Positions 817 to 50,875 of a DNA stretch of 64,000 nt are shown here, piece by piece. This DNA is from Cafeteria roenbergensis. Taxonomy: Eukaryota > Sar > Bigyra > Bicosoecida > Cafeteriaceae. Within the stretch, counting starts at the first letter, position 1, and every line of letters begins with the position of its first letter. The notes below the pieces were generated by a model. That model was not told the DNA's origin and searched no databases. It was given only the letters and a program-made list of their open reading frames with translations. A program made the translations under genes and the position numbers. Location of the stretch: contig VLTN01000079.1 of the NCBI GenBank assembly GCA_008330645.1, forward strand, positions 1 to 64,000. The letters are read 5' to 3'.

Positions 817-850
<34 letters not shown>

Positions 851-4798: not shown

Positions 4799-4836
<38 letters not shown>

Positions 4837-7800: not shown

Positions 7801-8166
7801 GCCGGCCAGCCATAGCCTGCAATAAGTGGCACCGTGTGGGGGGGAGAAAGCGGGGCGTGATACGGTGGCGCCAGTGCCACCCGGGGGCAAGCAGTCCGCA
7901 GACGACACGAGCAAACCGAAGGCTGCGAGCGGCGTCGCCATGTGCCTCGTGTGGGCCCAGCCTTCGAGCTCCCCAGCACGCGCAGCATGCCCACAAACGC
8001 GCGGCAAGCCTGGCCTGGACCCCGGGGGGGCGCTGTTGCGGCCAAAGCGGCGCGCCGCAAGCGCGGTCCTCACACTGCAGAGCCGCGCGACCTCGGGAAG
8101 CCTCGCGAGCTCGGGCACAGCTGCGGGCACAGAGAGGATGGCATCGAGACCAGCCAGAACGGACAT
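1..8166 (-). CDS. MDN1: Midasin (REA1/MDN1), ribosome-assembly AAA ATPase, 3' end outside window
   Basis: Dynein-like AAA ATPase that strips assembly factors from pre-60S ribosomes in nucleolus and nucleoplasm. Four AAA modules are visible in order: AAA1 Walker A GQSGSGKT near 6.0 kb; AAA2 Walker A GETGTGKT near 4.03 kb and Walker B WILLDEANLAP near 3.13 kb; AAA3 GPTSAGKT near 2.09 kb and WLILDELNLAP near 1.89 kb; AAA4 GETGAGKT near 0.64 kb. The spacing and the linker motif RDLLRWF after AAA3 follow the family. Proposed 5' exons are 8074-8166, 7716-7816 and 7471 downward, with GTGAGG/GTGAGC donors. Poly-Asp (near 4.82 kb), poly-Ser (near 0.88 kb) and Ala-Gly tracts sit in linkers. The frame changes once at a C run near 5.33 kb and at least seven times between about 1.0 and 2.9 kb, while 1-1040 is open again. 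AAA5, AAA6 and the MIDAS tail must lie to the left. Family is certain; start and integrity are not. Confidence 0.93.
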
Positions 8167-12200: not shown

Positions 12201-13432
12201 GCCCACATGGACTGCATCCAGCGTCCGTGGCGACTGCCGCCTCAGGCGTTACACAAACCGGCGGAAAAGAAAGAGACAGCTCCAACACGCGCGCAGGGGC
12301 CAGCAGATGCAGGGGCTGGGCTGAATCGGCTCCATGCCATCCACGATGCTGGGCGATTCCTTCCCGCGACCCTGACGAGCCGCTTACCAGCATGGAGCGC
12401 TTGGGAGCCGGAGGTTCTGGCGGCGAACAGCCTGTGCCTGTACCCTTTCCCCTTGCGGGCCAGTACGAGCCTGCCCACACCCGCTCTTTCCGCGGGGGGC
12501 GAACTGCTTGCATTCGGGGCCTGTCTGGCCAGACGAGGAGGTGGGTTGCCGCTGCGCTGGCCGCTGTGGCCGATGAAGGCGACGCGTTGGATTGGGCAGG
12601 CTGGATCGTCCACGGCCAGCAGTCGCTTGGAGCGTCTCCCCGCCCCGCAGCAGGCGGCTCGCGGACCGCGGCTGCAATTGAAGCCCTCCGGGAAGCTGCA
12701 GCTGCTCACAGAGCCCGCACTCTGGCGGCCATGCGCGGCCAGGACGCCGACCGACACGTGTTTGGCATGCGCCGGCTGCTTGGGCAGGCCCTGTCCAGCC
12801 CGCGGGCTTCGGGCCTTGCTTGGCCGCGCGACCGCACGGTTCGCACAGCGCCGGGCATGCCGTGTCCAGCTGAGCCAGCAGGCATGCCGTGGCCGGTGCC
12901 GCCAGGGGACGCCAAGGCGTTGCTGACAAACTCGGAATCTCGCGCAGCACGGGACAGCTTGCATCCTGCACCCGCGCAGCTTCTCGATGCCGCTCAAGGG
13001 ACTGTAGCTGTCCCTCGGGCTGCAGCACTAACGCGTGCGGCGCTTGGGAAGCCTGCCGTTGAGCGGTCTGGCCGCTGGCGAATCTCAACCTCCAATCTGG
13101 GATCTCGCTTCATGGAAAACTGGGGCTGGGGTCAAGTCGTGCCCGACGGCGTCGGCGTTGCCTACTCGCTCCACGCGGGCCGCATCCAGCTCAGCGTTGT
13201 GGGTCGCTCGGCATCACCCCTGCTGCTGGACGGCGCCGGCGGCGGCGGCTCGCACGCGCAGTGGACCAAAGCCATGCGAACCCTTCGGCAAGCGTTCGAG
13301 GCGCAATGCGAAGCCGACCCCCCCTCGCTGGCCCAGGCGTTCGCTTTTGCCGTCCCCATCGCAGCCCGCCTCGCGGTGCGCCTGGCTGACGCAGCACCGA
13401 AAGCTTCGGCCCCCCGCGAGTCGAAGCTTTGA
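9233..13432 (+). CDS. Carnitine O-acyltransferase, peroxisomal (C-terminal SKL)
   Basis: Transfers acyl groups between CoA and carnitine. Family marks in order are the N-terminal LPRLPVPPLAQTL, the WLRQWW..AYLSFR block, the catalytic histidine in AEHSDVDG (codon 11399-11401, residue about 607), the TRSFRGGRT block near 12.48 kb, STSNL, and VVPDGVGVAY near 13.14 kb. Two exons are proposed, 9233-9294 and 9643-13432. Joining them rebuilds the conserved LPRLPVPP across the splice (donor GTGAGG, acceptor CCGCAG; 348-bp intron with a GT repeat). The protein ends in Ser-Lys-Leu, a type 1 peroxisomal targeting signal, and no mitochondrial presequence is evident. At about 1,283 residues it is roughly twice the usual 600-770. 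The extra length is Ala/Gly/Ser-rich insertions, for example around 10.8-11.8 kb. Acyl-chain preference cannot be told; the acetyl, octanoyl and palmitoyl subfamilies are all possible. Confidence 0.9.
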
Positions 13433-14488
13433 ACGAGGACGTTCAGTGCGGCCTTGCGGCGCCTCAACGTTTGCCGTGGAGCGCAACCCCTTTCGCGCCG
13501 CCCCCCCTTCCCCCACCCCCCCTGGGCTCGGCAAGGGCCTCGCCTCGCACCCGGCACGACGCAACTTGGCACCACGTGGCATCCGCACCAGTGGCTGCTC
13601 GGCGCGGCGGGATCACAGGCGCGCAATCGGGCCAAAAAAGGCGCGGTTTTCGTGCGGCAGTTGTCACCACCGACACCAGACCGGCTGAGCGACCACGCGA
13701 CTTGAGGCTCGCGCCGGGTGCGCGCCAAGCACGCGCCAGAGGCAAGCGAGGCACGAAACTTCCCGCTGCTGGCCGACTGGTGGCGCGGCAATTGCCCCCG
13801 CCGTCGCAGGGGCGCCGTGGGACGCGCGGCCCGCGATCGCGTGTCGGCGCTGCGAGAAGCTGCAGCAAAGTTGGGCGGACCGTATGCCGAGGGAGCGACC
13901 CTCCTGCCGCGCGCCTCCGGCACGCCCGTCGCAAAATGCCTCGCTTGTGGGCAGGGCCAAGGCAGCCCCCGCTCTCCAGGGCCGGGGCTGCCTTGGCCCC
14001 TAGCCAAGCATGCGAGCTAGGGTCCGAGATGCGCCGCGCGCGGGCGCTTGTCGCGACTGTCGCCAGGTCGACGTTGATTTGCCCTGCAGACAAAGCGGAC
14101 GGCAAGCGTGCCCACTCTCTCCCACGCGCCGGCGCCTCCGCCCGGGGCCAGAGCGTGAGCGCCGGTGGCTGCTCGACTTGCTGTCCTCCGTGCCACGGGG
14201 GCGGGCGCCGTTGCGTTGGCTGGCTCGCTGGCTGGCTGGCCGGGATCGAACCGTCCCGCTCAGCCTCAGCAACACCGAGTGCCCCTGCCAAAAACGCTGC
14301 TCTCTTGCTCGCGCTCGGCGAACTCCACCGGCCCGCCCCCCGCAGCTGCGACCAACTGGGCCAGGCCCTCTCTCTCGCTCTCGCTCTTGCTCGCGCGCTC
14401 TCTCTCTGTCTTGAGGGAGGCGGCCTCTCCCCCTTCCCCGCCGCTGTGGACTGCCGGGAGCGCTGCTGGTCCGCTGAAGCGGGCAACA
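13433..14488. other. Intergenic region with CT-rich tract
   Basis: About 1.06 kb between the acyltransferase stop and the zinc-finger start, with no supported gene. It contains CTGG repeats near 14217-14240 and a CT-rich microsatellite at about 14366-14415, some 75-120 bp upstream of the next start codon, where a pyrimidine-rich leader or promoter is plausible. Confidence 0.4.
14366..14415 (+). repeat. CT-rich microsatellite upstream of zinc-finger gene
   Basis: Imperfect run of CTCTCT and CTCG units, about 50 bp, ending some 75 bp before the ATG at 14489. Simple-sequence tract, possibly in the 5' leader. Confidence 0.7.
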
Positions 14489-17400
14489 ATGGCGGCTCCT
14501 GCTTCCCGCCTCTCGACGCGGACTGTCTCGCGTTCTGATCGGCGCAGCGACCACTCGCCAGCCCCTGGCCCCGGGGACGACCCGGCGTCCACGTTTGCAG
14601 CGCCTCGCAAGACTGAGGACGGGGCCGCGGACCGCGCGGGCGCCCGGGGCACCGGAGGTGCAGGGATGCGGCTCGTGCGCGGCGGCACCCTGAGCGCAAG
14701 CTCGCCCACGTCACCTGCCAGTTCGGGCATGCGCGCAAGGGCCTGTGCGCCCGCGCCCGCGCCTGCGGTCCCGCACGCGGAGCGCTTCCTGGCTCGCGCC
14801 ACCAAGGGCAGCATGTCGCCAGCGAAGGGACCGCCTGGCGACGAGCCGGCGCCGGGAAGCGCCCACCGGGGACAAGCCGCGCCGGTCGCGTCGGGCCATT
14901 CCCGGAGAACCGCTGCAGATGCCCCCGCGACGCCGGGGCTCGCGCTCGCCGGCGCTGGCAACCACAGCGATCGGCAGCCAGAGGACGCGCGAGCCTCGGC
15001 GCGGGCGGGCAGCGCTGGAGGCGGCACGCAAGCCGGGGCGCTGGCGCCCGGCGGCAAGGAACCTTGGCAGTGCGGCCATTCTGCCAAGCCGCCCACCCCG
15101 CTGCCTCCGACCACGAAGCCGCAACGGCACCCACGCCAGCCGCCGGGCCATACCGGGCCGCCAACCTGGGGCGGGGAGCGGCCGGTGTCGCACGGGGGGC
15201 TGCAGCTCGCAGCTCCCCTCCCCTCTCGCTCAGACACGCGCGAGACCGGCTTGCCGGCGACAAGCGTCGGACTCCATCACCAGGCGCCGTTCCCGTTGCC
15301 TGTTCCAGAGCCTCTTGCCGAAGGCATCGACCACGAGCGCGAAGCAACAGCTTTGCGGCACCCGTTGGACCGCCAGGCGGGCCGTGCCCAAGCACCTGGG
15401 GAGGTGCAAGGGATGCCGACGACGCTGGCGGCGCCGCCGCGCGGTGGGGCGCAGTCGGTCGGAAAGCGCACCGCAGGCGAGCCCAGCTGCTCCACCAGTC
15501 TGGCTCCTCCGGGGACGCTGCCTCGCTGGTCTGTCACACCTGCCGCGTCGTCCGGCCGCAGTGCGACCCTTGACGCTCGCCGCTCGGTCCCGGCACATCC
15601 CGAGGCCATGTCCCGTCCAGGCGTGGCCATCCGTATTCCGCAAGCTCTCGAGGCGGGAGCTGACATGCGGTCCGTTGCCTCGGGCACGCACCGCCCCGGC
15701 CACACGCGCTTCGGCAGCGCCCAGGGTCCGGGCGGCAATGGCCAGAGCTCCAGCGCGACCGACGCGAGCGGCCACGCGCTGTCCCCGCCCGCGCGTGCAT
15801 GCCTGCCGACGCCAGCGCTGCGAGACGGCGCCAGGCATCAAGCGGCTTTCACTGCCTCAGACGAGCGCGTGCCGTCGGCTTCGATTCTCAGCCGCCCGTG
15901 CCCCGAGAGCGGGAGCGTGCTGGACTTGGATTCGGCTGGCCCGTTTCGCTGCGGATGGTCTGCTTCCGCCAACTTGGCAAACCCGGGCTCGCTTGAGACG
16001 CCGTTCGGCCAAGCGGCCTGCGAGCTTGCGGCTCGCGATGCTGACGTCGGTGATCAGGCGCCGCACAAAGGCAAGCCGCAGTTCCCTCCCCTTGGGCCAG
16101 GAAGCGAGGGCAAGTTTTGCGGGTTCGTGGCACGCACTTTCGCCGAGCTTGAGCAGCACCGGCTTGAGGCCCATGGTTTCCCGGGCGCTTCGGGACCAAC
16201 ATGTCCGGTGTGCCTTCGGAGAACGGGCTCGGCCTCGCAGCTGCTCAGGCATGCTCGTGCCTGCCACATGCTGCAGCGCAGGTGGGCGTGCAGCGAATGC
16301 GGGCGGGCGTTTGCCACGGCATCGAACCGCAACGCGCACGTTCGCACGGTGCACAAGCGGGCGCGGCCTTTCTCTTGCCCCGTCTGCAACAAGGCGCTCA
16401 GCCGGCGCACCCACCTCCGGGTGCATTGCAAGAAGCTTCACATGCTAGACATCGACGACGCAGGGAGCATGCGGCCCATCCTGGCGCGGGCAAGGCGAGC
16501 CGAAACCTCAGGCAGTTCTCCATGGCTGGGCGACGAGGTTGAGAGCGGATGGCCGCCTGAGCACACGCATCAAGACGCCTCGCCGCGAAGACGAGACGGG
16601 GCACCGAATGCTATGGCCGGAGCGCAAGGTCCTGCCTCGGGGCCTGGCATGCTGCAGGCGCTTAGCGAGGCAACAGCGCGGCACTTGCTCCCCTCTGTGG
16701 TCCAAGCAGCGCCGCGCGGCGCGGCCCGTCTGGATCCGAGCCATGCAACGGGTCAAGCCCATCCTGCGACTCGCACAGCTGCCCCTGTGGACTCCAGTTC
16801 CGCCGAGGGCTGGATGGCGGCCGAGGCGCAGAGCAGCTGGCCTGCCTCGGGGGGCGCGATGAGTGCTCCTGCTGGTCGGCCGTTGGAGGCGCGCGCCGCC
16901 GCCGGGTCCGCAACCTCGACGCTCCCAGAGCACCCTAGCGGCAGCACGCCTCGTGCCGAGCACGGCAGCGCAGGCAACCTTGCGTCGAGGTGGCCGGGGG
17001 CGTCAGCCTCCCTTGATCTTGGCCATCCCGGCACTGCGGCTTCCGGCCTGCAGCCGGACGATGCCCTCCACGGCATGCCAGGATCTGCGGTGCCAACACC
17101 AGGCGTGTCACCAGTCGGGCACAGCCCGTCGCCTCAGGACTCCTTCTCTGGCCAACAACAACAACAACAACAACAACCCGACACGCAACGCGGTGAAGCA
17201 GCCGACACCCGCGCGGACCTGTCGACGGCGGCACCGCCGAACGACTGGGCTCGGTACCCGCGCTGTCAGCAACCGCCCCAGCAAGAGCGGCCGCGCCAGG
17301 AGCTGGCACAGGACTGCCGATCGTCATCCGAGTCCCCGAGCGCTGCCCGGGCTGCGCAGGAAGCCGCCACACAGGCCGCAATCCGCGCTGCTCAGGCCAT

Positions 17401-18502
17401 GCGCGCTTCCCGCGGCATGGCCGAAGCTGAGCGCGCGGCTCACGTGTTCGTCCGGCCACACCACCCCTCGCCGCAGCCGGCACTGCCGGCATGGATGCCG
17501 CCACAGTGGGCCACGGAGGCGCCCCGGGACGTGGCTCTCATGCTCGCCGGCCAGCCACCGGTTGCGGGCACCATGGCTCCGCCGCCTGGGTTCGGCGGCG
17601 TGCCCCTGCAGCACACTCAAGGGCACGGCGCAAACCTGTTCACGACGGCTCACGGCCCGCACTGGGGTTGGCCCCCCCGGCCGGGGGGGTCCGGAGCAAG
17701 CGTGACTGGCACTGCAGGCTCCGCTGGACCGAGCTGTGTCGACCACGGAGCCGCCTCCGCAGGCCCCCCTCGGGGCATCGGCGATACCGCCAGCTGCAGC
17801 AGTGGCTCCGCGGTCCCTTCCTCCAGCGCGGCCGGCTGGTCGCCGAGCTCGTCGGCTGCCACAGCAAGCCAATTCGTGTCCGCCTCCGTGGCAGCAGTTT
17901 CGGGAGTGTCAATGCCAAGCCCGTCGCCGCCGCCGCCCTGCTCGGGCGCGTGGTCACAGGGCGAGCCCACCCCCGGTGGCTCCGAGAGCTACGCTTCCTT
18001 GGAGCGCGCGTGCACCTGGCAATACAACGCAATGGCGGCAGCAGCAGCAGCAGCAGCTGGCCAACGACACGCTGCCTCTGCGGCAAGCAGCATGGCAATG
18101 CTCAGGCTCATGGGTTGCGCGGCAGCATACCCCGGGCCGATGCCATACGCGAGCAAGCAGGCAGGCCCAGTCGGAATGTGGGACCCGACCTACAGACGCG
18201 AACCAGGGCCATGGAGCCCGCAGGCGCCGGCTCCGTCGCTTGTCTGGCCCGGCTCTGCGATGTATGTGCCCAACAGCTGGCACTGGCAGGCCGCCAGATC
18301 CGCTTCCCAACCGCACGGCTGGCAGCAACAGTCGCAAGTGCGTCTCCGCGTGGCGGGCGACTCGGGAACTTTCCCCGGCCCCAGTCCTTGCGGGGCGCAC
18401 AGCGTCAGGCCTCCCAGCCTTGGCGTGTACGACGCCGCTGCACCAGCGGCTGCAAGCGGTGGGCAAGCCCCGGTGCCGGGGGAGTCCAACTGCGAGGCGT
18501 GA
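14489..18502 (+). CDS. C2H2 zinc-finger protein, paralogue 1
   Basis: Probable nuclear DNA-binding regulator of 1,337 residues. Three C2H2 fingers lie at about residues 572-652 (16202-16443): CPVC...H...H, CSEC...NRNAHV..VH, then CPVC...HLR.H...H. The second and third are joined by a KRARPF linker. A fourth finger-like segment just upstream (FCGFVARTF...HRLEAH) keeps only one of its two cysteines. The rest is low-complexity Ala/Pro/Ser/Gly sequence with a poly-Gln run near 17155. The first in-frame ATG in good context (AACAATGGCG) is 14489; the open frame extends 324 bp upstream without an ATG. The finger block closely matches that of the gene ending at 23772, so the two are paralogues. Target genes are unknown. 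Confidence 0.85.
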   Translation: MAAPASRLSTRTVSRSDRRSDHSPAPGPGDDPASTFAAPRKTEDGAADRAGARGTGGAGMRLVRGGTLSASSPTSPASSGMRARACAPAPAPAVPHAERFLARATKGSMSPAKGPPGDEPAPGSAHRGQAAPVASGHSRRTAADAPATPGLALAGAGNHSDRQPEDARASARAGSAGGGTQAGALAPGGKEPWQCGHSAKPPTPLPPTTKPQRHPRQPPGHTGPPTWGGERPVSHGGLQLAAPLPSRSDTRETGLPATSVGLHHQAPFPLPVPEPLAEGIDHEREATALRHPLDRQAGRAQAPGEVQGMPTTLAAPPRGGAQSVGKRTAGEPSCSTSLAPPGTLPRWSVTPAASSGRSATLDARRSVPAHPEAMSRPGVAIRIPQALEAGADMRSVASGTHRPGHTRFGSAQGPGGNGQSSSATDASGHALSPPARACLPTPALRDGARHQAAFTASDERVPSASILSRPCPESGSVLDLDSAGPFRCGWSASANLANPGSLETPFGQAACELAARDADVGDQAPHKGKPQFPPLGPGSEGKFCGFVARTFAELEQHRLEAHGFPGASGPTCPVCLRRTGSASQLLRHARACHMLQRRWACSECGRAFATASNRNAHVRTVHKRARPFSCPVCNKALSRRTHLRVHCKKLHMLDIDDAGSMRPILARARRAETSGSSPWLGDEVESGWPPEHTHQDASPRRRDGAPNAMAGAQGPASGPGMLQALSEATARHLLPSVVQAAPRGAARLDPSHATGQAHPATRTAAPVDSSSAEGWMAAEAQSSWPASGGAMSAPAGRPLEARAAAGSATSTLPEHPSGSTPRAEHGSAGNLASRWPGASASLDLGHPGTAASGLQPDDALHGMPGSAVPTPGVSPVGHSPSPQDSFSGQQQQQQQQPDTQRGEAADTRADLSTAAPPNDWARYPRCQQPPQQERPRQELAQDCRSSSESPSAARAAQEAATQAAIRAAQAMRASRGMAEAERAAHVFVRPHHPSPQPALPAWMPPQWATEAPRDVALMLAGQPPVAGTMAPPPGFGGVPLQHTQGHGANLFTTAHGPHWGWPPRPGGSGASVTGTAGSAGPSCVDHGAASAGPPRGIGDTASCSSGSAVPSSSAAGWSPSSSAATASQFVSASVAAVSGVSMPSPSPPPPCSGAWSQGEPTPGGSESYASLERACTWQYNAMAAAAAAAAGQRHAASAASSMAMLRLMGCAAAYPGPMPYASKQAGPVGMWDPTYRREPGPWSPQAPAPSLVWPGSAMYVPNSWHWQAARSASQPHGWQQQSQVRLRVAGDSGTFPGPSPCGAHSVRPPSLGVYDAAAPAAASGGQAPVPGESNCEA

Positions 18503-29584: not shown

Positions 29585-30016
29585 AGCCGCGGGCGGTGGG
29601 GCGCCTTGGGCCCGGGAGCGCGAGCGCCTCTCCGTGAGCGCCTGAGCACCGGCCAGCATCCGGCCATCGCCGCCGTTGCCAACGCTGCGCGAGCGCCGGC
29701 CGGGCCAGGTGGGCGTCGATCGCGCGAGGGGCACGGCCGCCCGCGCCAAACCAGGGGGACACCTCTCTCCCTCCCCCGAACCGTCGGGAGCCCGCCGGCG
29801 GCGGGGCTGGCTGCCGAACAACAGTTGCTCACCTCGTCGGCACGGCCTGCGCAAGCGCACAATCAAAACTCTGCAACACGCCGGAGCTCACTCCGGCGCC
29901 GAAGCCACTCCGCCCGGCCCTTCGCCGACGCGCTGCCGCTGGGCCTGCGGCCACGTTGCCAGCCCGCGCGCAGCCCCAGTGCTCGCCGCGCCGCGCGCCC
30001 CCCCCCCCGGGCCGCC
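29585..30016. other. Divergent promoter region
   Basis: 432 bp between the start codons of the unknown minus-strand gene and the homeodomain gene. A relatively A-rich patch lies near 29860-29880. No defined element was recognised, but shared regulation of the pair is plausible. Confidence 0.4.
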
Positions 30017-33000
30017 ATGGCGACTCCCGCCTTCCCGCTGGCACCAGCCACCTTCCCGTCCCTCGGCGGCGCCAATGCCGCCGGAAGCCTGCCCCCGGCC
30101 CACCCAGGCGCGGGGGACCAGCCCGCCGACCCGCCCCAGCCCCCTGTGCTGGCTGCGTGCGCGGGCGTGCACGGCTTTGCCGTCGCAACCGGGGCTAAGT
30201 GGGTGCCAGTTGTCGTTGCCGAGCCCAGGCGGTTCTTCCTCACCCCGCAAACGGACCGGGCCTCGGCCATGCGCGCTGCGTTTGCAGGGGCTTCCCTGGG
30301 CGCGGCCGTGTGCCTGGCGCGGCTCAGCGGAGCGGGGGCGGCATCGGAAAAGGGCTCGACCGCTGCAGCAACGACGGCCGCCTCGCGCCGCGCTCCAGCC
30401 GACCCCGCAGGCGATGCCGTGGTCTCCGCCGCAGAAGCAGCCGTGCACAGCTGCCTTGCGGCCTACGCGACGGTGTCTGGCGCCGGCGGTGGCGCGGCGG
30501 CGGCATCGGCAGCGGGCGGGGCGGCAAGCCAGGCCGCCGCACCGGCCGCCTCCGACCTCGACGCAGCTGCCGCCCCCAGCTCTGCCTCTGGTCCAGGGCC
30601 AGCGCCCGCCTCGTCCCCTGCCACCTCGCCCTCGTCCGCGGCGGGGCTCGCAGCGGCGGGGCAGTCCGTCATCTCGGACGTCGCTGCCGCCCCGTCCGAC
30701 GCTGCCGCCCTCTTGAAGCTCCTCGTCGCAGCGGGGAGCCCCCGACTCGCCGTTGCACTGGCGACGGACATGGCTGGCAGCGACGTGCCGGGAGAGCTGC
30801 GTTTCGCCGTCGCAGCCGCAGCCAAAGCGGCAGCAGCGGAATCTCCCGGCGCCGCTGGCGCCGCAGCAGCTGCGGAGAACCCAACGGAAGGATCGGGCAG
30901 GAAGCGCCACAGAGACGGCTCTGCAGTGTTCCATCAGCCCCGAGTCACCGCGGTTGATGCCGCCATTGTGGCACAGGCGGCAGAGCTGGCCGCTGTGCGA
31001 AGAGGCACCCGGCAGAGCCTCTCCGCACCGGTGTCCACCAACTCGCCGAACCGCAACCAGCTTGCTGCCTCGAGCGCGGCGGGAAGCGGCTCTGCCAGCG
31101 GCGTGGGCCAGTCGTCGTCGTCATCGTCGTCGCCGCCGCCGGCTGCAGCAGCAGCCGCTGATGCTTCTGCTGCCCCTGCGGTGGCGGTGACGTCATCTGC
31201 CACAGCAAGCCATCCGGCGCAACTCTCTGCCGTCTCTGCGTCGCTCTCAGCTCTGCCCGCGTCTCTCAGCGTTCCTGTCCCTGCAAGCGGCCCTGCCACT
31301 GGGGTGGGAGCGGCGTCGGCGTCAGTGGCAGGACCAGGCTCTGCCACAAGCTCCGTGAGTGGCTCTGCCGTGATCTACCAGGCCAACCTCGGCGACGCTC
31401 TGCTGGCCTTCGCGGCGAGCGACCCGGAGTCACTGGGGGCGTCGGCGGAAGGTTTGGCCGTTGACCCCGGCCTGCTAGGCTCCATCGCCGCACGCCTCAC
31501 GGCCCCTGACGGCAGGAAGGAAGCCGTTCTCCGCAAATCGGCGCAACGTTTGGCCGTGCTTGCTGGCTCCTCTGTGATCACCATCACTCCCAAACCAGCG
31601 GCCACGTTCGACGCAGGGGTGTCCAGCTCTGCTGATGGCTCTGCCGGAGCGATGGGTCTGGGTCTGGGCTCTGCCGGCTCTGCCATGCGCGGAGTATTGG
31701 GATCGGCGGGGGCAACCTCCGTTGCCTCTGTCGGCTCTGCCGCGCCGCAGAGCGGGTTGCCTCGTCCGCCCGGAACCGGGTCCACGCCGTTCCTCGTGCG
31801 TCTGACGGTGCCAGCTGCCTACGCCAGGCAGATTGCCGCCCCAGCGGCGGCCGTGGCGGCCGCAGTGGCGGCAGATGACCTGGCTTCGACGACTGACCAG
31901 CAGCTGCCGGGACACGGCCTTGGCTCTGCCACCGACGTCGGCGGGAGTGGAGCCGCACGTGGCGCGTCAGCGGGTTCCGCGGGAGGAGGCGCCGCCAACT
32001 CGGCTGGCGGCGGCGGTGCTGGCGGCGGTGCTGGCGGCGGCAGTGGCGCGCTGAGCGCTGTGGCAAGCCGTCGGCTGGCCCGCGATCACTCCTCCACCCT
32101 CCGGGCGTGGATGGCGCTGCACTGGGACCTGCCCTTCCCCGACACCGCCACGAAGAACGGCCTCTGCACACTCACCACCATGTCCCAGCGGCAGGTTGAG
32201 GACTTCTTCGCCCGGGAGCGGAAGCGCGTGTGGCGGCCCCTCCGCCGCCTCGCCTCTCACGCGGCAGCAGCGGCGCTCGCAGCCAGGGGTGCCGCGGGCG
32301 TGGCGCAAGCAGAGCTAGAGGTCGACGTTGTGGGGGTGGCGGCTTCAGCTGACAGCATCAGGACAGGCCAGGCGGGGCGGGTTAGCACCGGCAGCCCGCA
32401 CCAGCAGCAACACCAGCACCAGCAGCACCAGCACCAGCAGCAGCAGCAGCGCCAGCAGCAGCAGTTGCAGTTGCAGTTGCAGCAGGCAGGACAGAGCCAC
32501 GCTCACCAGCTGCAACTCCCTCAGAGCAGCGTCGGCGTTGCTGCCATCCAGCAGGCAGCATCGACCATGCCTGCCTGGCAGAGCCACCTCGCATCAGCCG
32601 GACATCGACCATCGCTCTCTAAAGTGCTGGAGCTGGGGGCTGGCCTCCAACAGGTCCCTGCGGCCGTGGCAGCGGCGGTTTCGGGCACTTCGGTTTCGTC
32701 GGCTCTGCCGAACGCGGGCTCTGCCAGTTTTTTGCTTCCGACTGCGCCAGCGACGACGGCGTCGGCGTCGGCCGGGCTGGCGCTCGGAAGGGCTGATCAC
32801 GGCTCTTCGGGCACCGGGGTCCTGGGGGCAGGGCCCTCCGCGGCGTCGACGGCAGCGGCAGCATCGCTCTCAGCAGGTTTGGCCACGCTCACTGGCTCTG
32901 CTGGTGCTGGTGCGATGCCGACGGGGTCGACGTCGGCGTCTGCGTCGCTGCCCCGCGCCCAGCACCCGGCGTTTACGTTCCCGCTGCAGTTGGCGGGCTT

Positions 33001-33919
33001 GGCTGGCCTTGGAGCGATGCCCGCGTCGCTCAGCGCCAGCGGCCTTGCCCAGAGTCTTCAGCTGGGCGGCGTAGGAGGGCAGTTCGCCAGTCTGACCGCG
33101 CCGTACGTCGTGCCAGCGACGACGTCGTCGGGCGGGGCGGCGGCCGGCCCGCACCTCCAGCAGCAGCTCGCCCAGCAGCAGCAGCTGCAGCAGCTGCAGC
33201 AGCAACTAGGCGGCTCGTCTTCGCACTTGGCGACTCTTGCCTCAAGCGGCAGCAGCAGCAGCAGCGGGAGCGGCAGCGGCAGTGGGAGCGGCGGCGGCGG
33301 CGGCAGCGGCGGCGTCATGTCGGCTGCATCTGCACCAGCAGCTGCAGCGGCGGCTGCTGCGTCGCTCCCAGGGTCGCTTGTCACAGGCGCATCAATCCCG
33401 CCGTCCGGGCTGGCTGCGTTGACGGGAACGCTGCCAGCCCCCGTGTCAACCTCGTCCTCGGCAGTGGCAGCCCATGCCCCGGCCACTTCCGCGGCCACTT
33501 CCACGGCGGTGACTGCAGGGCTGGCTGGTGGAGTGGCAGGAGCTGGCGCCGTTTCGAGCGACGTCGCTCCCTCGGGGGACGGTCCTCCGGCCAAGCGACC
33601 GGCTCTCGATCCTTCCGCTCAGGCAGAGCTCGGCGCTGTGACGGCGCCGAGCGACGCAGCGTCCGTGTCTGCAGCGCTTGCCGCGGTCACCTCGACGTCT
33701 CTCGCCAGGCTGATTGGGGACGGCTCTACCGAGGCGGCAGCTACCGGCGGCGGCTCCCAGCGCGCGTCTCTCAGCGGGGCATCGCTCGCACAGCAGCTGA
33801 GCGGCGCGGGGCTGCCCGGCAACGCCGCGTCGCTGCTGCTCCAGCCCGGCCTGCAGGCAGCAGCGTCGCTGCCGGGGGCGGAGCGGTTGCTCAACAGCCT
33901 GGCCCCGCGCTCCGAGTGA
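30017..33919 (+). CDS. TALE-like homeodomain protein with atypical recognition helix
   Basis: Probable nuclear protein of 1,300 residues starting at ATG 30017 (GCCGCCATGG, strong context). The only clear domain is a homeodomain at about residues 685-746 (32071-32255): STLRAWMALHWDLPFPD, then SQRQVEDFFARERKRVW. The P-F-P loop between helices 1 and 2 marks the TALE class. The usual helix-3 core WFxNxR reads FFARER, so Trp48 is Phe and the near-invariant Asn51 is Arg (codon 32213-32215), while Arg53 is kept. The rest is low complexity: Ala/Ser/Gly-rich, Gln/His repeats at 32398-32500, poly-Gly near 33295. DNA binding may therefore be altered or lost. Kinship to plant, animal and algal TALE factors is inferred from these motifs. 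Confidence 0.8.
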   Translation: MATPAFPLAPATFPSLGGANAAGSLPPAHPGAGDQPADPPQPPVLAACAGVHGFAVATGAKWVPVVVAEPRRFFLTPQTDRASAMRAAFAGASLGAAVCLARLSGAGAASEKGSTAAATTAASRRAPADPAGDAVVSAAEAAVHSCLAAYATVSGAGGGAAAASAAGGAASQAAAPAASDLDAAAAPSSASGPGPAPASSPATSPSSAAGLAAAGQSVISDVAAAPSDAAALLKLLVAAGSPRLAVALATDMAGSDVPGELRFAVAAAAKAAAAESPGAAGAAAAAENPTEGSGRKRHRDGSAVFHQPRVTAVDAAIVAQAAELAAVRRGTRQSLSAPVSTNSPNRNQLAASSAAGSGSASGVGQSSSSSSSPPPAAAAAADASAAPAVAVTSSATASHPAQLSAVSASLSALPASLSVPVPASGPATGVGAASASVAGPGSATSSVSGSAVIYQANLGDALLAFAASDPESLGASAEGLAVDPGLLGSIAARLTAPDGRKEAVLRKSAQRLAVLAGSSVITITPKPAATFDAGVSSSADGSAGAMGLGLGSAGSAMRGVLGSAGATSVASVGSAAPQSGLPRPPGTGSTPFLVRLTVPAAYARQIAAPAAAVAAAVAADDLASTTDQQLPGHGLGSATDVGGSGAARGASAGSAGGGAANSAGGGGAGGGAGGGSGALSAVASRRLARDHSSTLRAWMALHWDLPFPDTATKNGLCTLTTMSQRQVEDFFARERKRVWRPLRRLASHAAAAALAARGAAGVAQAELEVDVVGVAASADSIRTGQAGRVSTGSPHQQQHQHQQHQHQQQQQRQQQQLQLQLQQAGQSHAHQLQLPQSSVGVAAIQQAASTMPAWQSHLASAGHRPSLSKVLELGAGLQQVPAAVAAAVSGTSVSSALPNAGSASFLLPTAPATTASASAGLALGRADHGSSGTGVLGAGPSAASTAAAASLSAGLATLTGSAGAGAMPTGSTSASASLPRAQHPAFTFPLQLAGLAGLGAMPASLSASGLAQSLQLGGVGGQFASLTAPYVVPATTSSGGAAAGPHLQQQLAQQQQLQQLQQQLGGSSSHLATLASSGSSSSSGSGSGSGSGGGGGSGGVMSAASAPAAAAAAAASLPGSLVTGASIPPSGLAALTGTLPAPVSTSSSAVAAHAPATSAATSTAVTAGLAGGVAGAGAVSSDVAPSGDGPPAKRPALDPSAQAELGAVTAPSDAASVSAALAAVTSTSLARLIGDGSTEAAATGGGSQRASLSGASLAQQLSGAGLPGNAASLLLQPGLQAAASLPGAERLLNSLAPRSE
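32398..32490 (+). repeat. CAG/CAC repeat encoding Gln/His tract
   Basis: CAGCAC and CAGCAG units encode alternating Gln-His, then a pure Gln run and Gln-Leu pairs, just after the homeodomain. Such tracts are common in transcription factors and are prone to length change. Confidence 0.8.
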
Positions 33920-41370: not shown

Positions 41371-44300
41371 ATGCGCGCCGCGCTCCTCCTCGCGGCGATG
41401 GTTGCCGTCGCCGGACAAGTGCCGGACCTGCGCCGAAGGCCTGCGGCCGGAGGTCGCGGGCAAGCCGGCAGCCTGCTCGCCGCTCCGCGTGACTCGCCCG
41501 CGGAAGGGCGCTTGCTCGTGAGCATTGCTCCGCCCCGCGGCCTCGCAGCGCGCTTCGGGGCGCGGCCCACCCGCGCAAGGGACTGCTGGTCACTGCCGGC
41601 TTCGGTCGCTTCCCCAAACGATGGCATTGAAGTTTCTGCGCGCGGCTCGCCCTCCCCGCCCCCGCAGGTCCTTGGCGCGTCCAAGCCCGCGATTCAGACC
41701 ACGGAGCTCCACGCTCTCAATCTCGTGGTGAGGCAGCCGCTCGCCGGCGGCCCGCCGCTGCAGCCCGGCGCGCCTGATGCTGGCGCCTGTTGCCTGCCGA
41801 CACATCTTCAGCGCCACGTGATTCATTCCTTTGCCCACCTAGCCGCAGGATCCGGACCCGGGCGCGCGCCCATGCGCGGAACGTGCCCTGCTGGCAATGG
41901 TGATGCGCCCGTCTGGGGCGTCGTTCGTCGAGGTCGCTCGCTCGCAGGTCTTGGCGGGGAGTTCGCCGGACACGCGTCGGCTTTCGGTGCGCGCGCCGCT
42001 CGAGCGGCGCATGCTGCTCCACCCCGGGGACGTGGTTGCCGTGTTCCTGGACCCCGGATCCTCCCGGCCCCTGGACTGCCAAGCACCTGCCGCGTGCTGC
42101 GCCGTTGGGCGCAGCCTGAGAGGCCACTTGCTGGCGGCCCCGCTGGCAGCTCATGGACTTCCCCCCGGCGCCCCCGCTGTGCTCGAGCTGCAAGCGAGGG
42201 AGGGTGTCATGCTGCGAACTGCGAACTCGGGCGCCGCGCGACTGGTGCCAGCCGCACCGACGCCATCCTCATGCCCGAGGAGTTGCTCGCGCGCGGCTGG
42301 TTCGGATGCGGCGGGCCGCGACGACGAGACTCGCACCGTTGTGCTGGACTCGACAGCGCCGGCCGCGCGTCGCGGCCTGAGCTCGGGCATGGCTCTTCCT
42401 CTGACAATCACGCGATCCGGCGCGGTGCTGGACACCGTCACCGGGCAGGACGTCGGATCCGGCTCGGGCGGACAGTTCGGCGGGATTGTGGTCCAGGTTG
42501 GACACTTGCTGTTCGTATCGTCGCTGCTGGGCTACCATGGGAACACGGGAGGCGCAGCGGTGTTCCGGATCGACCACCAGAACCCGGGGGACGTGCCGTC
42601 CTTTGCAAACAACTCGTCACCCATTGCGTGGCTCCCGCTCCAGGGCAACCCCGAGGGCATTCAGGCCGGGCCAAGGCTGTTAGGGGTGGCAATGCTTGTG
42701 GTGCGGCTCGCGGGAGATGCCCTGGACGACGATTACACGGGCTTGCCAATCGCTCCCGACGAGGAGTTCAGCCTGGCGTTGGGCGTGCCGGCCGGCCCCA
42801 CAAACGCGTTGAAAGACGGGGGCTTTGTCATGTACCGTGTGAATCGCCGCACGGCCGCCATTTCGCACCAGTACACGTGGTCGGCGAAGGACAAAGGCGT
42901 CGCCTGGGACACAGCTCCGAGGCTCGGCATCGTGATGTCAACGCTTCCGCGGACATGGCGAACTGGCCGCGGGCAGCGGGCTGCAGTCTCAGACATCCTC
43001 ATCGTGTCTTCGGACCTCGCGTCGGGAACGGTGGCCTCCGAAAAGACCATCACAAACCCCGGAGCCATGCTGCTGCTCAAGCTGGAAGACGACGGCACAG
43101 TTGGCAACGCGTCGACGTCTATGATCGTTTTGGGCGATGGGACTCCGGGGATGCCGCCCACTCTGGCAGACTGCGCTGCCGTCACGTGCCGCACCACGAA
43201 CGACCACCTCGGAAACGGCTTGATGGCTTTGCCTCCAGGCTTCGACCCAAGCTACCCGCAGCATCCAATCATCGTGGCAGGGGCCTGGCAGGACTCGCTC
43301 AAGGATAGCAACGCTGGCTGCATCTGGCTCTTCACCGTCAACGTCACGGACGCGCACTTTGCCGCTGGCCCGCTGGCGAACGTCATTCTGCGAGCGGCGC
43401 GACTGGACTTTACATCGGCTCCGCTGGCCGACCGCAACGCGATGTGGTTGCAGCGTCCTCACATCGGGGCTTACCTGCGGACGTACGGAGACATGGACGG
43501 CGACGGCTACGTGGACTTGTGGATGGGCGCGATTGGCGCTGGAACCAAATACACCCCGGCTCTACCCGACGCCGGCGCTTGCGTCATCTTTCACCTCGCA
43601 CCGAACGCTGTTGACGACAAAGTGGAGATCCGCGGGGTGTCAATCATCCACGCTGGATCTGGCGGGCAGCTGAGCGGCATCGTTTCAGCCGGGGACGGGG
43701 CAGGCGCCGACCGGTCGTTGCTCACCCTGCCGCAAGGGGCAAGCACCACGAGGTACCTGGCGCTGGGAGCGCGGATGGGCGCGGGGGGGGGCTACCTGAA
43801 GCTGATCCCACTCAGCGGGATCGCATCGCCAGCGCCGGCCGACGCAGCCCTTCCTATCCCTTCACCGACTCCCACGCCGTCGGTGACGCCATCCCAGACT
43901 CCGCCGCCGTCGATGACAGCTTCGTCGACGCCACCACCAACGGTGACGGCGTCGCCAACGGCTTCGACGACGGCTTCGCGGACACCGACACCGTCCGTCA
44001 CGGCCTCCCCAACAGCCTCCGTCACGGCTTCGCAGACGCCAACACCCTCCATCACGGCGTCCCCAACAGCCTCCGTCACGGCTTCGCAGACGCCAACGCC
44101 CTCCGTCACGGCCACCCCAACAGCCTCCGTCACGGCTTCGCAGACGCCAACACCCTCCATCACGGCCACCCCAACTGCCTCTGTCACGGCTTCGCAGACG
44201 CCAACACCCTCCATCACGGCCACCCCAACTGCCTCCGTCACGGCGACGCCAACACCCTCCATCACGGCCACCCCAACTGCCTCCGTCACGGCTTCGCAGA

Positions 44301-47300
44301 CGCCAACACCCTCCGTCACGGCCACCCCAACAGCCTCCGTCACGGCTTCGCAGACGCCAACACCCTCCATCACGGCCTCCCCAACAGCCACGGGCACAGC
44401 GTCCCAATCCCCCACCCCATCGGTGACGGCGTCGGCAACAGCATCGGCGACGGCTTCGCAGACGTCAACGCCATCCATCACGGCCTCCCCAACAGCCTCC
44501 GTCACGGCTTCGCAGACGCCAACACCCTCCGTCACGGCCTCCCCAACGGCCTCCGTCACGGCTTCGCAGACGCCAACACCCTCCATCACGGCCACCCCAA
44601 CAGCCTCCGTCACGGCTTCGCACACGCCAACACCCTCCGTCACGGCCACCCCAACGGCCTCCGTCACGGCTTCGCAGACGCCAACACCCTCCGTCACGGC
44701 CACCCCGACGGCCACGGGCACAGCGTCCCAATCCCCCACCCCATCGGTGACGGCGTCGGCAACAGCATCGGCGACGGCTTCGAACACTCCAACGCCGTCA
44801 GTCACGGCGTCCCCAACGGCCTCCGTCACGGCTTCGCAGACGCCGACGCCTTCCGTTACGGCATCGGCCACCCCCACTCCGGCGTCCAAATGCGTCCCGC
44901 TCCTGCCTTTGCTCGAGCGCGGCGTCAACTGCACCCGGCCAGCCACTGGGCAGTGGTCGGTGGGCACGGTGTGCTCACTGCTTTGCCCATCTGGCGCGCT
45001 GGGGCAGAGGGCTGTGCTGTCCCGGCTTGGAGCCGAGCCGCTAGCCGGCCTCGCCGCGGCCCGAGCGCACAGCATGCCGTGGGCTGATGCCAGCGCTCCT
45101 GGATCGCTGGGTCTGGCGGCCGCGCCGCGTGTGAGCGCCACCCTCAGGTGCGACCCGCAGACGCTGCGGTGGGCGACAGAGGGTAGCGTGTCGGAGAGCG
45201 GCGTGCTGACCGACGAGGAGGCATCCTCGGGAGTGCTGTCTTGCGGCGTGCTGCGAGCACAGCCGCCCATGCGGCCTTCAGCGCGGGCGTGCGGCCGCGT
45301 GACCAGCGTGGACGTGCTTCTTCCGCTGGGCGTGCGCGCCGAGCTGGAGGCCCGAAACGTGGCCGCTGGCGCGTGGGCGGCGGGCAATCAATCGTCAGCA
45401 GCGCAGTGCAACGCCTCCTCTGCCGTGTGGTGGGCGGGCGGCACCTCGCTGCTCCCCCGAACAGTGCAGGTGTTCGCAGCCACGGGGGAGGTCCTCCCCG
45501 GCCAGCTCCGGCAGGGCTTGCCGACTCCAGCGGAGAGCCCCGGCGCTGGGGCATGGGGCGAGGGGTCATGGCTGCTTGCCACGGTGCAGCTGGACGGGGC
45601 GGCGGGCAAGGTCGTGGACGTGGCCCCCTCGCCTTGGGGCGGTGGCGGCGCTGACCCGGGGGCGTCGCAGGACGGGGCGGCATCGCTCACGCTGGCCACG
45701 GTGTCGGAGGCCGACGATGCTGCTGCCCAGTACGACGCGGCCGAGGCCGGTAAGTGCGCGGGCCGGCCCGTCGCGCTGCTGGGGCAGCCGGCGCTGCAGC
45801 TCCGCGTGCGCCTGACGCTGGACGAGGCCCTGGCGGGACGGGCCTTGCGTTTCTTTGCAGCCGCTGGCAACGCTTCGGACGGCAGCGCAGGCGCCGCAGC
45901 GCCGGCTGCGGGAATGGCCGTGGGCCCCGTGTCCGCTGATGTGTTCATCAGCGAGGGCGCCTGCGCTCAGCTCCCCTTGCGTGTGACCGCGCCGACAGTG
46001 GGGCCCACAGGGGTGCAGGTGCAGGAGGTGGCGGGCATGGTCGCTCTCAGCCCGTCCTCGCCCTTCTCGTCGCTGCGGTTCGCACTCCCCACGCGGCCAG
46101 TGCAGGGCGAGACAGTGGTCGTGGGCTGCCTGCCCGACTCTGGCGACGTCGTGGCGGACCACTCGGCCTCTGTGATGGACGGGGCTGTGTGGTCCGCAGC
46201 TGCAGAGCTGCAGGTGCGCCTTCAGCTGCTGTCTGCGTCGCCGACAGACAGGTCCGTGGTCGTACACTGCGCTTTTGCGTCCACCGCCATGCCGGCGGCC
46301 GAGGCAGTGCGTTCGCTGTTGCGATCTCAGAAGGCCATGGAGGTCTCGAGCCAGTCACCCGCAGCAGCGGCTGCCAAGCGGCGCACACAGGCTGCGGCCG
46401 CGGCAGCAGCGGGCGTGGACGCTCTGTTTGCAGGTCTGTCTGCGCCGACCGAGGGGGCGCTGTACAGTGGGCTGGGAGGCGTGTCAGTGGAGGCGCGCGT
46501 GGTCGGCACCCGCGTCCCGCTGCTGGCGGAGGTGCTCGTGAAGCAGGCTGGCGCAAACGGCGGGTCAAACCAGTCGCGCTGGCAGGCTGCGTCGGGCAGC
46601 GGGGCGACTGTCTTGCTGCCCGACGCTTGGGAGGGGGCGTGCCCGAGCGCCTCGGAGTTGAGCCAGGCCGGAGCGGCGATTCCCGCGGCTGGCGGGTCGG
46701 AACTGCTGAGCGACCTGGTGGGCGGGCTGGGCGCGGAGGTGACATCCAGCGGATCGAGCGAGCTGCTGCTGGTGTGCGCGGGCGCGGTCGGCGCGTGCTT
46801 TGGGCCGTCGCCCCGCGTCCTTGTGGGATCCGCGGAGGCGCGAGTTGTGAGCGTGGCGGCCGACGGGACCAGCGCCCGGGTGATCCTTCCCGCCCAGTCT
46901 GACGCGTGTGCGTGGCAGCAGGACGCAGCAGCGACGTCGGGAGTCCTCGGGGCTTGGGCGGGCCTCCCGGCTGGCGACGCCGGGGAGTGCGGATGGCGAG
47001 GCGTCACCATCCTGCCGGAGGGCGCCGGGCTGGCAGCCGAGTGGCGCCCGAGACTGCCTGCCGAGGGGCGCGTGCTGCCGCTGTGCCCGGCCGCCGCGAA
47101 GCGGCTGGACCTCGTCCCGCTCGGCTCGCTGGCGTCCCTCTGCCTAGTGGGGACCGAGCGGGAGCGAGTGCTCAGCGGCGGGACTGCGGTGTCGCTGCTG
47201 GGGGCGACGCTGTCGGTGGAGCTCTCGTCCGCCGCACAGCTGGCCGGCTACTCCGTGAGCCAGAAGGACGCAGCCATCTCGCTCGTCACTGGTGCCCTTG

Positions 47301-50300
47301 CGTCGCAGGCCCTCGCCGTGTACTTCACCGAGCAGTGTGCGGGCTTCGCGGCACCTGGCCCCGCGTGCGCCGCCGGCACGAGTGACATCCCGTGCGCGCA
47401 CGGCTCGGGGGACGCGTGCCAGCCGTGCTGGTCGCTGTGCCCTGGAGGCGACGCCGCTGGCGGCGCGGTGGAGTGCGCGCGGTGTCCCGGGGGCAGCCGC
47501 GTGTGGCCTGGCCCGGGGTACTGGGTGTCGGACGAGAGCGCAGACTCGGTGGCGCGCTGCGACCCGCCGGCGACATCGCGGTGCCTCGGCTGGAACGCCA
47601 CCCTGGGCGCGTGCGAGTGCGGCGTCGGCTTCACGGGAGTTGCTTGCAGCGGCTGCGAGCAAGGGTACTACCCGCACTCGACGCGCGGGTGCGCGTCCTG
47701 CCCGGCTGGCACGCCGCTCCAGCTGCTGCTGATGCCCGTGGCGCTGTACGGCGGGCTCGCACTGAGTCTGGTGGCGGGCACCCTTGGCCTGTTCGGAATG
47801 CTGCAGTGCGCCGCGCCGGCGGTCGACCGACGCGAGGCGCTGCGGCGGTCCGCCATCGCGCAGGCGAAGGAAGGCGGTGCCACTGGCAAGGCGGCGCGGG
47901 CCGCCGCGGGGCCCATCGTCGAGGAGATGCTCGCCAAGAGCGGCGGGCGAGTGCCCATGTGCGCTTGCGACAGGGCTGCCGTCGCTCGCGCTGCTGGGCG
48001 GGCGGCGCAGCTGGGGCTGTGGTCGGTGCTGAGCATCCAGGCGCTCGTGCAGGTGTCGCGCACGCTGGAGCCCGGCGTGCCGGCGGTCGTGGCCCAGGCG
48101 TTTTCCATGCTCTCCGTGTTCGAGCTGTCGCCCTCGGTGGCGGTGCACCCGCAGTGTTTGACCGCCGCCCCGCTCACAGTCGAGACGGCAGTGATGATCG
48201 CAGTGCTGGCAGCTTCGGGCATGCTGGGGCTGGCGGCGACGGCTGTGTGCCTGATGCAGCGTCCCTCGCGCAGCCTGGAGCAGAAGGGGTGTTCGTCGTG
48301 GGCGTCCGGGCCCCTGCCCGGCTTGTTCTCGGTCGTGTCGCTCACCTACGTGTTGGGTACCAACACAGCCGTGGGAGTGCTCAACTGCGTGGATGCGGGG
48401 CTGGCAGGGGCTCCGGCGGGGGTGACCGGCCTCGTGATGGCGACCAACCCCTTCGTGCCCTGCGGCACTGGAGCGCACGTTCGGGCGAGGGTGTTTGCCA
48501 TCGCAGTGGTGTGCGTGGTGACGGCGGGCATGCCGCTGGCGTCGCTAGTGTTCCTCAGCCGCCGGGCGTCGGCGCTTGTGCGGGCAGTTGTCATGCAGCG
48601 GCTTGCGGAGGCGCGGCCGCTGACGGATGACGCCGGGCCTGACAAAGCGTCCGATGCGGTGATGACAGTGGCCGCGCTGCACGCCAAACCGGCTGGCAGG
48701 CACGCAGGCCGCGGACTGCTTGGCGCCACAGCAGGGGCGGGCAGGGGCCGATGGTCTGTCGAGTCCCCGCTTGGCGCACACGCTCGCGGGCGAGGCAGGT
48801 CGGCGGGACGAGGGCCCAGCAGGGCTGCAGGCCGCAGCGCGCTTGCGAGGCCCCCGTCCGCCGCAGCCACCAGCGCGCCGGCCAGCCCAGCCACAGCGGC
48901 GGCGGCCGTGCCTGTGGAGAATGCGGCTCTCATGCACGTGATTCGCCGCAGCTCCATTCTGTCGGAGGCACGAACGTCGCCTCTCTGGCAGAGCGGAGCT
49001 GCGGCCGGGCCGCTGCCTGACGGCGGAAGGGCCGCGTCTCGGCGCGGGTTCCGCCCGCTTTCGGCCAGCGGGCCCCGCACGGCGGGGCTCCAATCAGAGG
49101 CCGACCGAGACGCGAGGGCGGCAGCTACTGCTCGCGCGGCGGCGGATGCCGAGGCAGCGGCCTCACGGCCTGCCGGCGAAGCTCTCAAGGCGGTGCTGCG
49201 CCGCGGCTCCTTGCTGTCGAGAGCACGCGAGTCGCCGCTCTCCCTGCGGGCGCTGACCCCGCCGGCCGGTGCCACGGCGCCCGCCAACGCGTCGTCGCGC
49301 TCGCTGCGCGGTTCGGGCCTGCGGGCCCTTCCAAGCGGGCGGGCACTCTCGTCCGGCAGAGCCGGTGCAGCCACGGCGACCGCGGCTGCCAGCGACCGGG
49401 CGCCCGGTGCAGGGCCGGCGCCGGCCAAGTTCGCGCTCCCCAAGCCGGCAGCCGGCGCGACGGCGACTGCAGCGCTCGCAATCGCGAAGCGTCCGTCACC
49501 AGCAGCTCCGCCGCGGAAGCCGGCACGCGCCGCCTCAACGGCAGACGGTGACAAGGCCGCAGCCGACGAGGCGCCGCTGGTGCTGACTGACAACCCAATG
49601 CGGCGCGCAGCGCACGCAGCGGCGCGCCCAGCGGCCACGGGCGAGGGCGCTCCTGCCAAGCCTTCCGGCGGCAGCGCTGCGCTTCGGGACGAGCGCATTG
49701 GGAGCAGGGCGTGGTCTGTGAGCGAGGCGCGGGCCATCATTGACGGCGTCAACCGGCGCGTGGCGCGCACAGAGAGGGGCAGGGCGGCCCGTCGGGCCAG
49801 CCGAGCAGCGACGCACATGGCAGGCGCCGCAGTGCCGGCCAGCCCCTCGCGGGACCCGTCCCCGCGTTCGGCCTCCCCGCGCCGCGGCCCGCTGCGCGGG
49901 TGCTGTGGGCGTCAGAGGCGCAAGCGGGCTGCAGACGCGGCAGCGCCCGAGAGCGTGGCGGACCTGCTGGACATGAGCCGAACGGTGCGGGCGGACAGGG
50001 CGCTGCGGCCGTGCGTGGGGCGCGATTTCCGACCCTCTCGAGGCTGGCACGTGCCTGCGAGCCAGCTGTCGTTGGCCGTCATGGGCTGCGCTGGCGAGCT
50101 GCTGGTGGCGTCTCCGTCCCGCACGGGCGCGTCGGTGCTGGCAGGGTGCGGCATCGTGACGGCGGTGTGCGTGACGCTGGCCGCCTCTGTTCTGTGGGAC
50201 CAGCCGTACGCCAAGGGCCACCGCTGGAAGCGCTGGCTTCGCGCGCTCACGCTGTTGCTGGCGGCGCTGACGTCCTGGCTGAACCTGGCGCAGCTGGCCG

Positions 50301-50875
50301 CCACAGGCGAGCTCAGCACCGGGACCAACATGTCCTGGCTGACGTGGGACGGCTCGGCGGCCGGGGCCGCGGTGGCTCCACTGGCCTTTGGCGCCCTCGC
50401 GCTCAGCGCAGTGCTGCTGACCGCGCTTGTGGGCGTCATCGTCGCAGCGCTGGGAAAGGACACAGCGGTGGCTATTTGGTGCGGTCGGGGGTGCCTTGCA
50501 GGCGTGGCTGTCGTGCGCCCAGCGTGCATTCGGTGCACAGCGCCGTGCAGGCGCACTGCCAACCCGGAGGAGCGCGGCTTGGCACCGAAACCGGGCGGCG
50601 GCACGGCTGGTTTGGCCGCAGCCGGGCCCGTTTCGGAAATGCAGTCTCGGAGCGACGCCGACGGCGGGCTCCCGCCTGGCCTGGGGCTGCCTGGACAGCA
50701 AGGCGGGCTCCTGGGCATGGGTTCAGGACCCCTTTCATCGTCAGGGCCAGGCGGCCTGCTGTCACTCGGGCAGGGGACGTTTTCGCACTCAAACAGCCTG
50801 CTGGCGCGGGAGGTCGCGGCACCGCGCACCCGAGAGGCGACGGGATCGTCCCGGGTTCGCATGCCAGCGCAGTGA
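41371..50875 (+). CDS. Giant surface protein: FG-GAP-like head, Thr/Pro stalk, Cys-rich modules, multi-pass membrane end
   Basis: Model of three exons, 41371-41517, 41668-41727 and 41849-50875, giving 3,077 residues. Introns of 150 and 121 bp start GTGAGC/GTGAGG and end CCGCAG, and all junctions are phase 0. Exon 1 supplies a signal peptide ([16 protein letters not shown]). Residues about 150-735 resemble an integrin-type FG-GAP propeller, with a calcium loop [10 protein letters not shown] near 617. Residues about 741-1080 are an 18-residue Thr/Pro/Ser repeat, likely O-glycosylated. A sushi-like Cys module follows (about 1084-1184), then a long extracellular region with a GCC2/GCC3- or EGF-like Cys cluster (about 1897-2022). 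About eight hydrophobic spans start at 2026, interrupted by a large Ala/Ser/Arg-rich loop (about 48.6-50.0 kb). Probably a plasma-membrane adhesion or receptor protein. Single-frame support from 41849 on is strong; the first two exons are inferred. Confidence 0.8.
43861..44880 (+). repeat. 54-bp coding tandem repeat (18-residue Thr/Pro/Ser unit)
   Basis: The 54-bp unit encodes 18 residues of the type [18 protein letters not shown]. About 17-19 copies, some shortened, with SITAT/SVTAT variants and two interspersed [18 protein letters not shown] blocks that look like a higher-order duplication (near 44388 and 44712). It forms the stalk of the giant surface protein. Confidence 0.9.

Follow-up and report, generated by a model that had tools for sequence, protein, structure and literature searches.

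A giant candidate surface receptor of Cafeteria roenbergensis and an NP[LM] motif recurring in its membrane-module superfamily

We analysed a window of 64,000 nucleotides from the marine, bacteria-feeding flagellate Cafeteria roenbergensis (assembly GCA_008330645.1, contig VLTN01000079.1, positions 1 to 64,000 of the forward strand; G+C content ~71%) and, within it, a gene for a very large protein with a propeller-type head, a repetitive stalk, a Cys-rich collar and a module of about nine candidate membrane helices. Judging from sequence, this module is a member of a superfamily with ~36 locations in the genome, and the tripeptide NP[LM] is enriched in the presumed cytoplasmic loops or tails of that superfamily. 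We estimate at about even odds (0.5) that the protein serves at the cell surface as a giant modular receptor for adhesion or sensing, with NP[LM] docking a shared adaptor. Genome searches covered the 36,303,456-base, 167-contig assembly, in which the window's contig is C79; relatives are named by their contigs in the same manner.

The NP[LM] motif in loops and tails

The motif was first noticed in the loops of the window protein's own family and in the C-terminal tails of three giant proteins of the same superfamily (C51, C32 and C55). Eighteen tails of other superfamily genes, none of them from this discovery set, were fetched unseen, those of C50, C109 and C37 being trimmed after the last helix and those of C1, C83, C2, C67 and C5 at a landmark. 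NP[LM] was present in 16 of the 18, including the C37 tail, which reads NPLRR once its stretch is extended by 584 bases. With the three discovery tails added and C37 counted as a miss, 18 of 21 tails held the motif (20 occurrences in 4,782 residues), while shuffling, which ignores the relatedness of the tails, gave a mean of 0.49 and a maximum of 4, with 0 of 2,000 shuffles reaching 20. The reversed string of the motif occurred 0 times in these 21 tails, and NPM and NPL ranked first and second among tripeptides present in at least six of them.

The six loops of the window family contained 7 motifs, at least one in each, compared to 0.18 expected (two of the loops are near-identical copies); leaving aside the window's own, the count was 5 of 5, two near-identical. 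Elsewhere the motif was rare: ten ectodomain stretches totalling 19,400 residues held 3, which is chance level (2.9 expected), and ten other long open reading frames (ORFs) in the window, not all of them established genes, held 1 in 11,530 residues. Five shortened tails, out of 12 more chosen by their match to the Pfam family TRP (PF06011), yielded 5 motifs in four tails (0.16 expected); C89 and C61 among them lie outside the matches to the C32 membrane module used as a query. Grouped by similarity, the 18 unseen tails make five sets, and every set includes at least one tail with the motif. Finally, a distant relative on CACGRA010000014.1, filed as a Marinimicrobia single-cell genome, is 30% identical to the C32 module, and its tail reads FASNPLLNW; a second motif, NPM, lies in its ectodomain. 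This sequence is probably protist DNA carried into the sorted well. The relative, a giant membrane protein encoded in positions 1-7910 of that contig (reversed) and related to the superfamily, also has a Pro/Thr stretch and repeats that by eye look IPT-like.

One branch carries NP[LM] in the loop and the others carry it in the tail, and by eye the flanking residues have little in common. A docking motif therefore fits better than plain inheritance, and from its distribution NP[LM] looks like a docking site for an adaptor. EH-domain proteins classically bind NPF, and by analogy they are one candidate reader; EH domains are encoded at three places in the genome.

Gene layout, relatives and swapped heads

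The first-pass annotation had proposed a protein of roughly 3,077 residues starting at 41371. One long frame is indeed real; it comprises 3,008 codons from 41849, followed by a stop codon ending at 50875 (2,992 codons if counted from the ATG at 41897 to 50875), and reaches back to an acceptor-like cag/GAT at 41849, directly after the last in-frame stop. The ATG and hydrophobic leader at 41371 are in a different frame from this main exon, which makes a short first intron likely, probably using one of two donors. The N-terminal region aligned loosely to relative C77; no AG was found at the matching boundary in C77 or C44, so these two relatives do not confirm the exon boundary. We rejected a chance open frame because the frame is conserved in relatives. 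A 531-amino-acid antisense ORF (43792-45387) was also set aside as a gene, since it overlies the stalk repeat and is probably no true gene. The features are as follows, with residues counted from codon 1 of the main exon at 41849.

41371..41517, or alternatively ending at 41418, plus strand: candidate first exon with ATG, hydrophobic leader and predicted signal peptide (sequence and frame)
41849..50872, plus strand: main coding exon (frame analysis, relatives)
41849..42391, plus strand: N-terminal region ahead of the propeller, residues 1-181, poorly modelled
42392..43828, plus strand: beta-propeller-type head, residues 182-660 (profile match, structure model)
43490..43519, plus strand: 10-residue calcium-loop motif, residues 548-557, the sole strict one in the head
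43919..44862, plus strand: Thr/Ser/Pro stalk, 54-base-pair unit, 17.6 copies
44888..47317, plus strand: middle extracellular region, residues 1014-1823, which is conserved among the relatives and gave no match in Pfam
47321..47710, plus strand: Cys-rich collar ahead of the membrane (family alignment, profile comparison)
47714..48613, plus strand: candidate membrane helices 1-5 (hydrophobicity, alignment, model)
48614..50056, plus strand: presumed cytoplasmic loop, large and rich in Arg, Ser and Ala, joining helices 5 and 6
49592..49600, plus strand: NPM motif, residues 2582-2584, within the loop
50057..50452, plus strand: candidate membrane helices 6-9 (alignment, model)
50504..50872, plus strand: C-terminal tail, presumed cytoplasmic, without NP[LM]

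The outline annotated earlier, in which a propeller, a stalk, Cys modules and membrane spans with a large loop follow one another, thus holds, and the mucin-like Thr/Pro stalk was borne out by the repeat. The sushi-like and GCC2/GCC3-like modules did not survive, as no such family was listed for the whole window protein at an expectation value (E) up to 5; relative C32 has a sub-threshold Sushi match (0.053). The collar bears a faint likeness to DUF7630 (PF24633) and to Cys modules of ELAPOR1 type; DUF7630 matched weakly in two of the six family members (best 0.0046) and in nine of ten superfamily modules (best 3.7e-5), none of them at the curated cut-off where scores were shown.

Searches with separate parts of the protein recovered overlapping sets of relatives. 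The head found C77, C44, two copies on C17 and C6, and the middle region found C44, C6, C34, C17 and C77; C34 gave no match to the window head. The collar with the first helices found C44, C17 twice, C6 and C34, and, more distantly, C55, C51 and C32. Identity to the relatives was 32-42% for the head, 34-45% for the middle region and 50-65% for the collar and first helices, the best-conserved part examined. By these comparisons, six relatives in the genome share the whole or part of the plan and, together with the ~36 locations of the membrane module, they dispose of the idea of a singular system. Four viral-contig scans found no relative encoded.

Not every copy is intact. That on C77 runs into the contig end, one of the two on C17 lies in several frames, and the C44 head is split across two frames. 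The C44 shift falls mid-propeller (~2045-2117 of the reverse-complemented C44 stretch) and may reflect a pseudogene, an intron or an assembly error; in appearance the C44 and C77 heads are near-identical and are perhaps alleles. The C17 copies (C17:87641-93274 and 98832-104462) are near-identical neighbours, the second being a single 3,551-amino-acid frame.

The more distant giants carry other ectodomains. C55 has FG-GAP stretches within a 4,927-amino-acid frame, C32 has FG-GAP matches as well as many cadherin-like and IPT-like repeats, and C51 has an IPT-like array, the last three repeat types being recognised by eye without Pfam calls. This suggests that heads, whether propellers or what appear to be cadherin- and IPT-like arrays, have been swapped on a shared membrane module. 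Like the window protein, C32, C51 and C55 belong to the membrane-module superfamily and carry NP[LM]; unlike it, they have the motif in the C-terminal tail, not in the loop.

The window protein could also be a structural coat or attachment protein, with the membrane module as a mere anchor and NP[LM] as a trafficking or cytoskeleton tag, and no signalling. In keeping with this, the mucin-like stalks carry different repeat units in C34, C6, C77 and C17, and the ectodomains are very large and built, by eye, of adhesion-type repeats. The C6 stalk consists of several hundred residues of almost pure Ser/Ala/Thr, and its length likely varies between strains. A transcriptome study of C. burkhardae, moreover, found cell-adhesion domains, IPT included, over-represented in the set of genes whose expression rises in stationary phase (PMC7852580). 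However, a collar and first helices conserved well beyond the head and middle region are more than an anchor would seem to need, and we regard a mere coat as rather unlikely.

As for the surroundings of the gene, Pfam identified a midasin-type AAA protein (2712-5489, minus strand), a carnitine acyltransferase (9650-13429, plus strand), a C2H2 zinc finger (14165-18499, plus strand) and a KN homeobox (29606-33916, plus strand) in the window.

Membrane module and propeller head

In the family alignment the Cys collar and the hydrophobic segments are conserved, the loop varies strongly, and conservation returns in a second block. At low confidence, AlphaFold placed five long helix candidates before the loop and four after it. 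With the collar outside, the loop would presumably be inside after five helices and the tail inside after four more. The first-pass annotation had about eight spans split by an Arg/Ser/Ala-rich loop; the loop and about nine candidate helices are there, and the membrane model has a pLDDT (predicted local distance difference test) score of 42. Profile searches of the PDB with membrane modules returned one match at 0.23 and, in another search, 13 matches with a best of 0.035. The helices also matched a holin family below its cut-off (PF23778, 0.0023), which was taken as chance.

Compared by hhalign with an alignment of ten superfamily modules, the family module matched at 98.7% (E 2.4e-16) over 297 columns that cover the collar and helices 1-5; the alignment ends after helix 5 and leaves helices 6-9 uncovered. 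The C32 module as a single-sequence query listed 47 places, grouped into 36 locations, with the window gene among them at E 1.5e-4.

Part of this superfamily touches PF06011, which we take to comprise fungal TRP-like and flavin-carrier proteins. PF06011 matched 24 genome places at E up to 0.1, with 11 above its cut-off, and seven of the ORFs concerned are shared with the C32-module query; superfamily module C9 also matches at 5.8e-4, below cut-off. As in PF06011 proteins, several helices follow a Cys-rich part. Conceivably, then, the giant ectodomain sits on a TRP-like ion channel, and a pull on the head or a ligand would open a cation pore formed by the nine helices. Yet only C7 among the seven shared ORFs scores above cut-off, the other six being weak, and the ten other places above cut-off are absent from the C32-module matches. 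Most PF06011 matches also fall in the C-terminal part of the profile, whereas the family link covers the collar and helices 1-5 only, and the window protein differs from that family in its giant ectodomain and the large loop between helices 5 and 6. Its link to TRP-like proteins is accordingly indirect and tentative, and we consider a channel improbable.

The propeller head had been annotated beforehand as FG-GAP-like. Structure prediction of this segment, a check proposed with the annotation, produced a propeller-type model of moderate confidence, and the family's head alignment matched the integrin-alpha calcium motif profile (E 6e-6). FG-GAP (PF01839) matched four of six family heads (best 4e-4); a whole-genome search listed 22 FG-GAP places, none in the window gene, and a PDB sequence search with the head alone gave nothing useful. 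The longest open frame among the FG-GAP places listed has 10,496 amino acids (C2:1303076-1309147).

The head is 12-18% identical to integrin alpha chains across the whole propeller. In integrin alpha, according to PMC3192720, calcium-binding DxDxDG motifs occupy blades 5-7; the same paper takes up integrin-like sequences from Ectocarpus, a brown alga, and reports the seven-repeat integrin-type propeller as absent from 47 genomes of unicellular eukaryotes. The window head shares a calcium loop near the propeller end; unlike integrin alpha, it has one strict loop and the Cage pattern at only 3 places, not in every blade, and the protein has several hydrophobic regions with ~9 candidate helices where one span is expected, and no GFFKR-like string for KxGFFxR. 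A search for integrin beta (PF00362) found no match in the genome, but control searches were equally silent, and the first-pass idea of a cell lacking animal integrins gains nothing from it. Failing on the Cage motifs, the calcium pattern and KxGFFxR, the protein is scarcely credible as a true integrin alpha-like subunit pairing with a beta partner, and we rejected membership; judging from the model, it is integrin-like at most in fold.

A receptor reading and its reach

Receptor function with an NP[LM]-docked adaptor remains our preferred reading. The predicted signal peptide would direct the protein to the membrane, where the propeller head, which has one calcium site or more, would bind a partner on a bacterial, substrate or same-species surface. 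The mucin-like stalk, different in each relative, would keep the head away from the membrane, and the middle region and Cys collar would couple it to the ~9-helix module, perhaps distantly related to PF06011, which would pass the binding event inward. The shared adaptor would then dock on a cytoplasmic NP[LM] and cluster the receptor, anchor it or take it into the cell. The stationary-phase rise of adhesion domains agrees with sensing or attachment during food shortage, as evidence at the level of domains and not of the window gene. An adhesion head joined to a channel- or receptor-like end, as first annotated, is a fair reading given the propeller model, the calcium-motif profile and the superfamily link, with any integrin likeness confined to the fold.

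Several results weigh against this reading. The C78 and C54 tails, the two misses among the 18, have NPA in place of NP[LM]; one of the five tails chosen by PF06011 lacks the motif, as do all six C-terminal tails of the window family. The tails are related (five groups among 18), so the counts are not independent. No Pfam family matched the window protein above its cut-off; PF06011 in particular is reached only via relatives, having failed to match this protein at E up to 5 or contig C79 when the genome was searched. Foldseek with the poor membrane model gave no meaningful match. FG-GAP did not match the window head at E up to 1, the Foldseek matches of this head are weak (best 9.4e-4), and no integrin is among the best 50 listed.

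Among the open-access literature matches listed, the accessible text contained no description of this architecture or of the NP[LM] motif. The window gene would belong to a known kind, the large modular surface proteins of protists; the motif could be new in kind. More tentatively than the receptor reading itself, we envisage a stramenopile or wider receptor system, with dozens of giant proteins per cell, one membrane chassis, one NP[LM] code, swapped heads and a single adaptor. In animals, adaptors read NPxY tails, and a single adaptor reading many receptors here would be analogous.

In our judgement, little is known of the receptors by which free-living protists recognise prey, surfaces and one another. 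If true, the reading proposed here would give integrin-type heads outside animals a concrete historical case, and should dozens of receptors indeed share a single chassis and a single short motif, the reader of NP[LM] could open a whole pathway.
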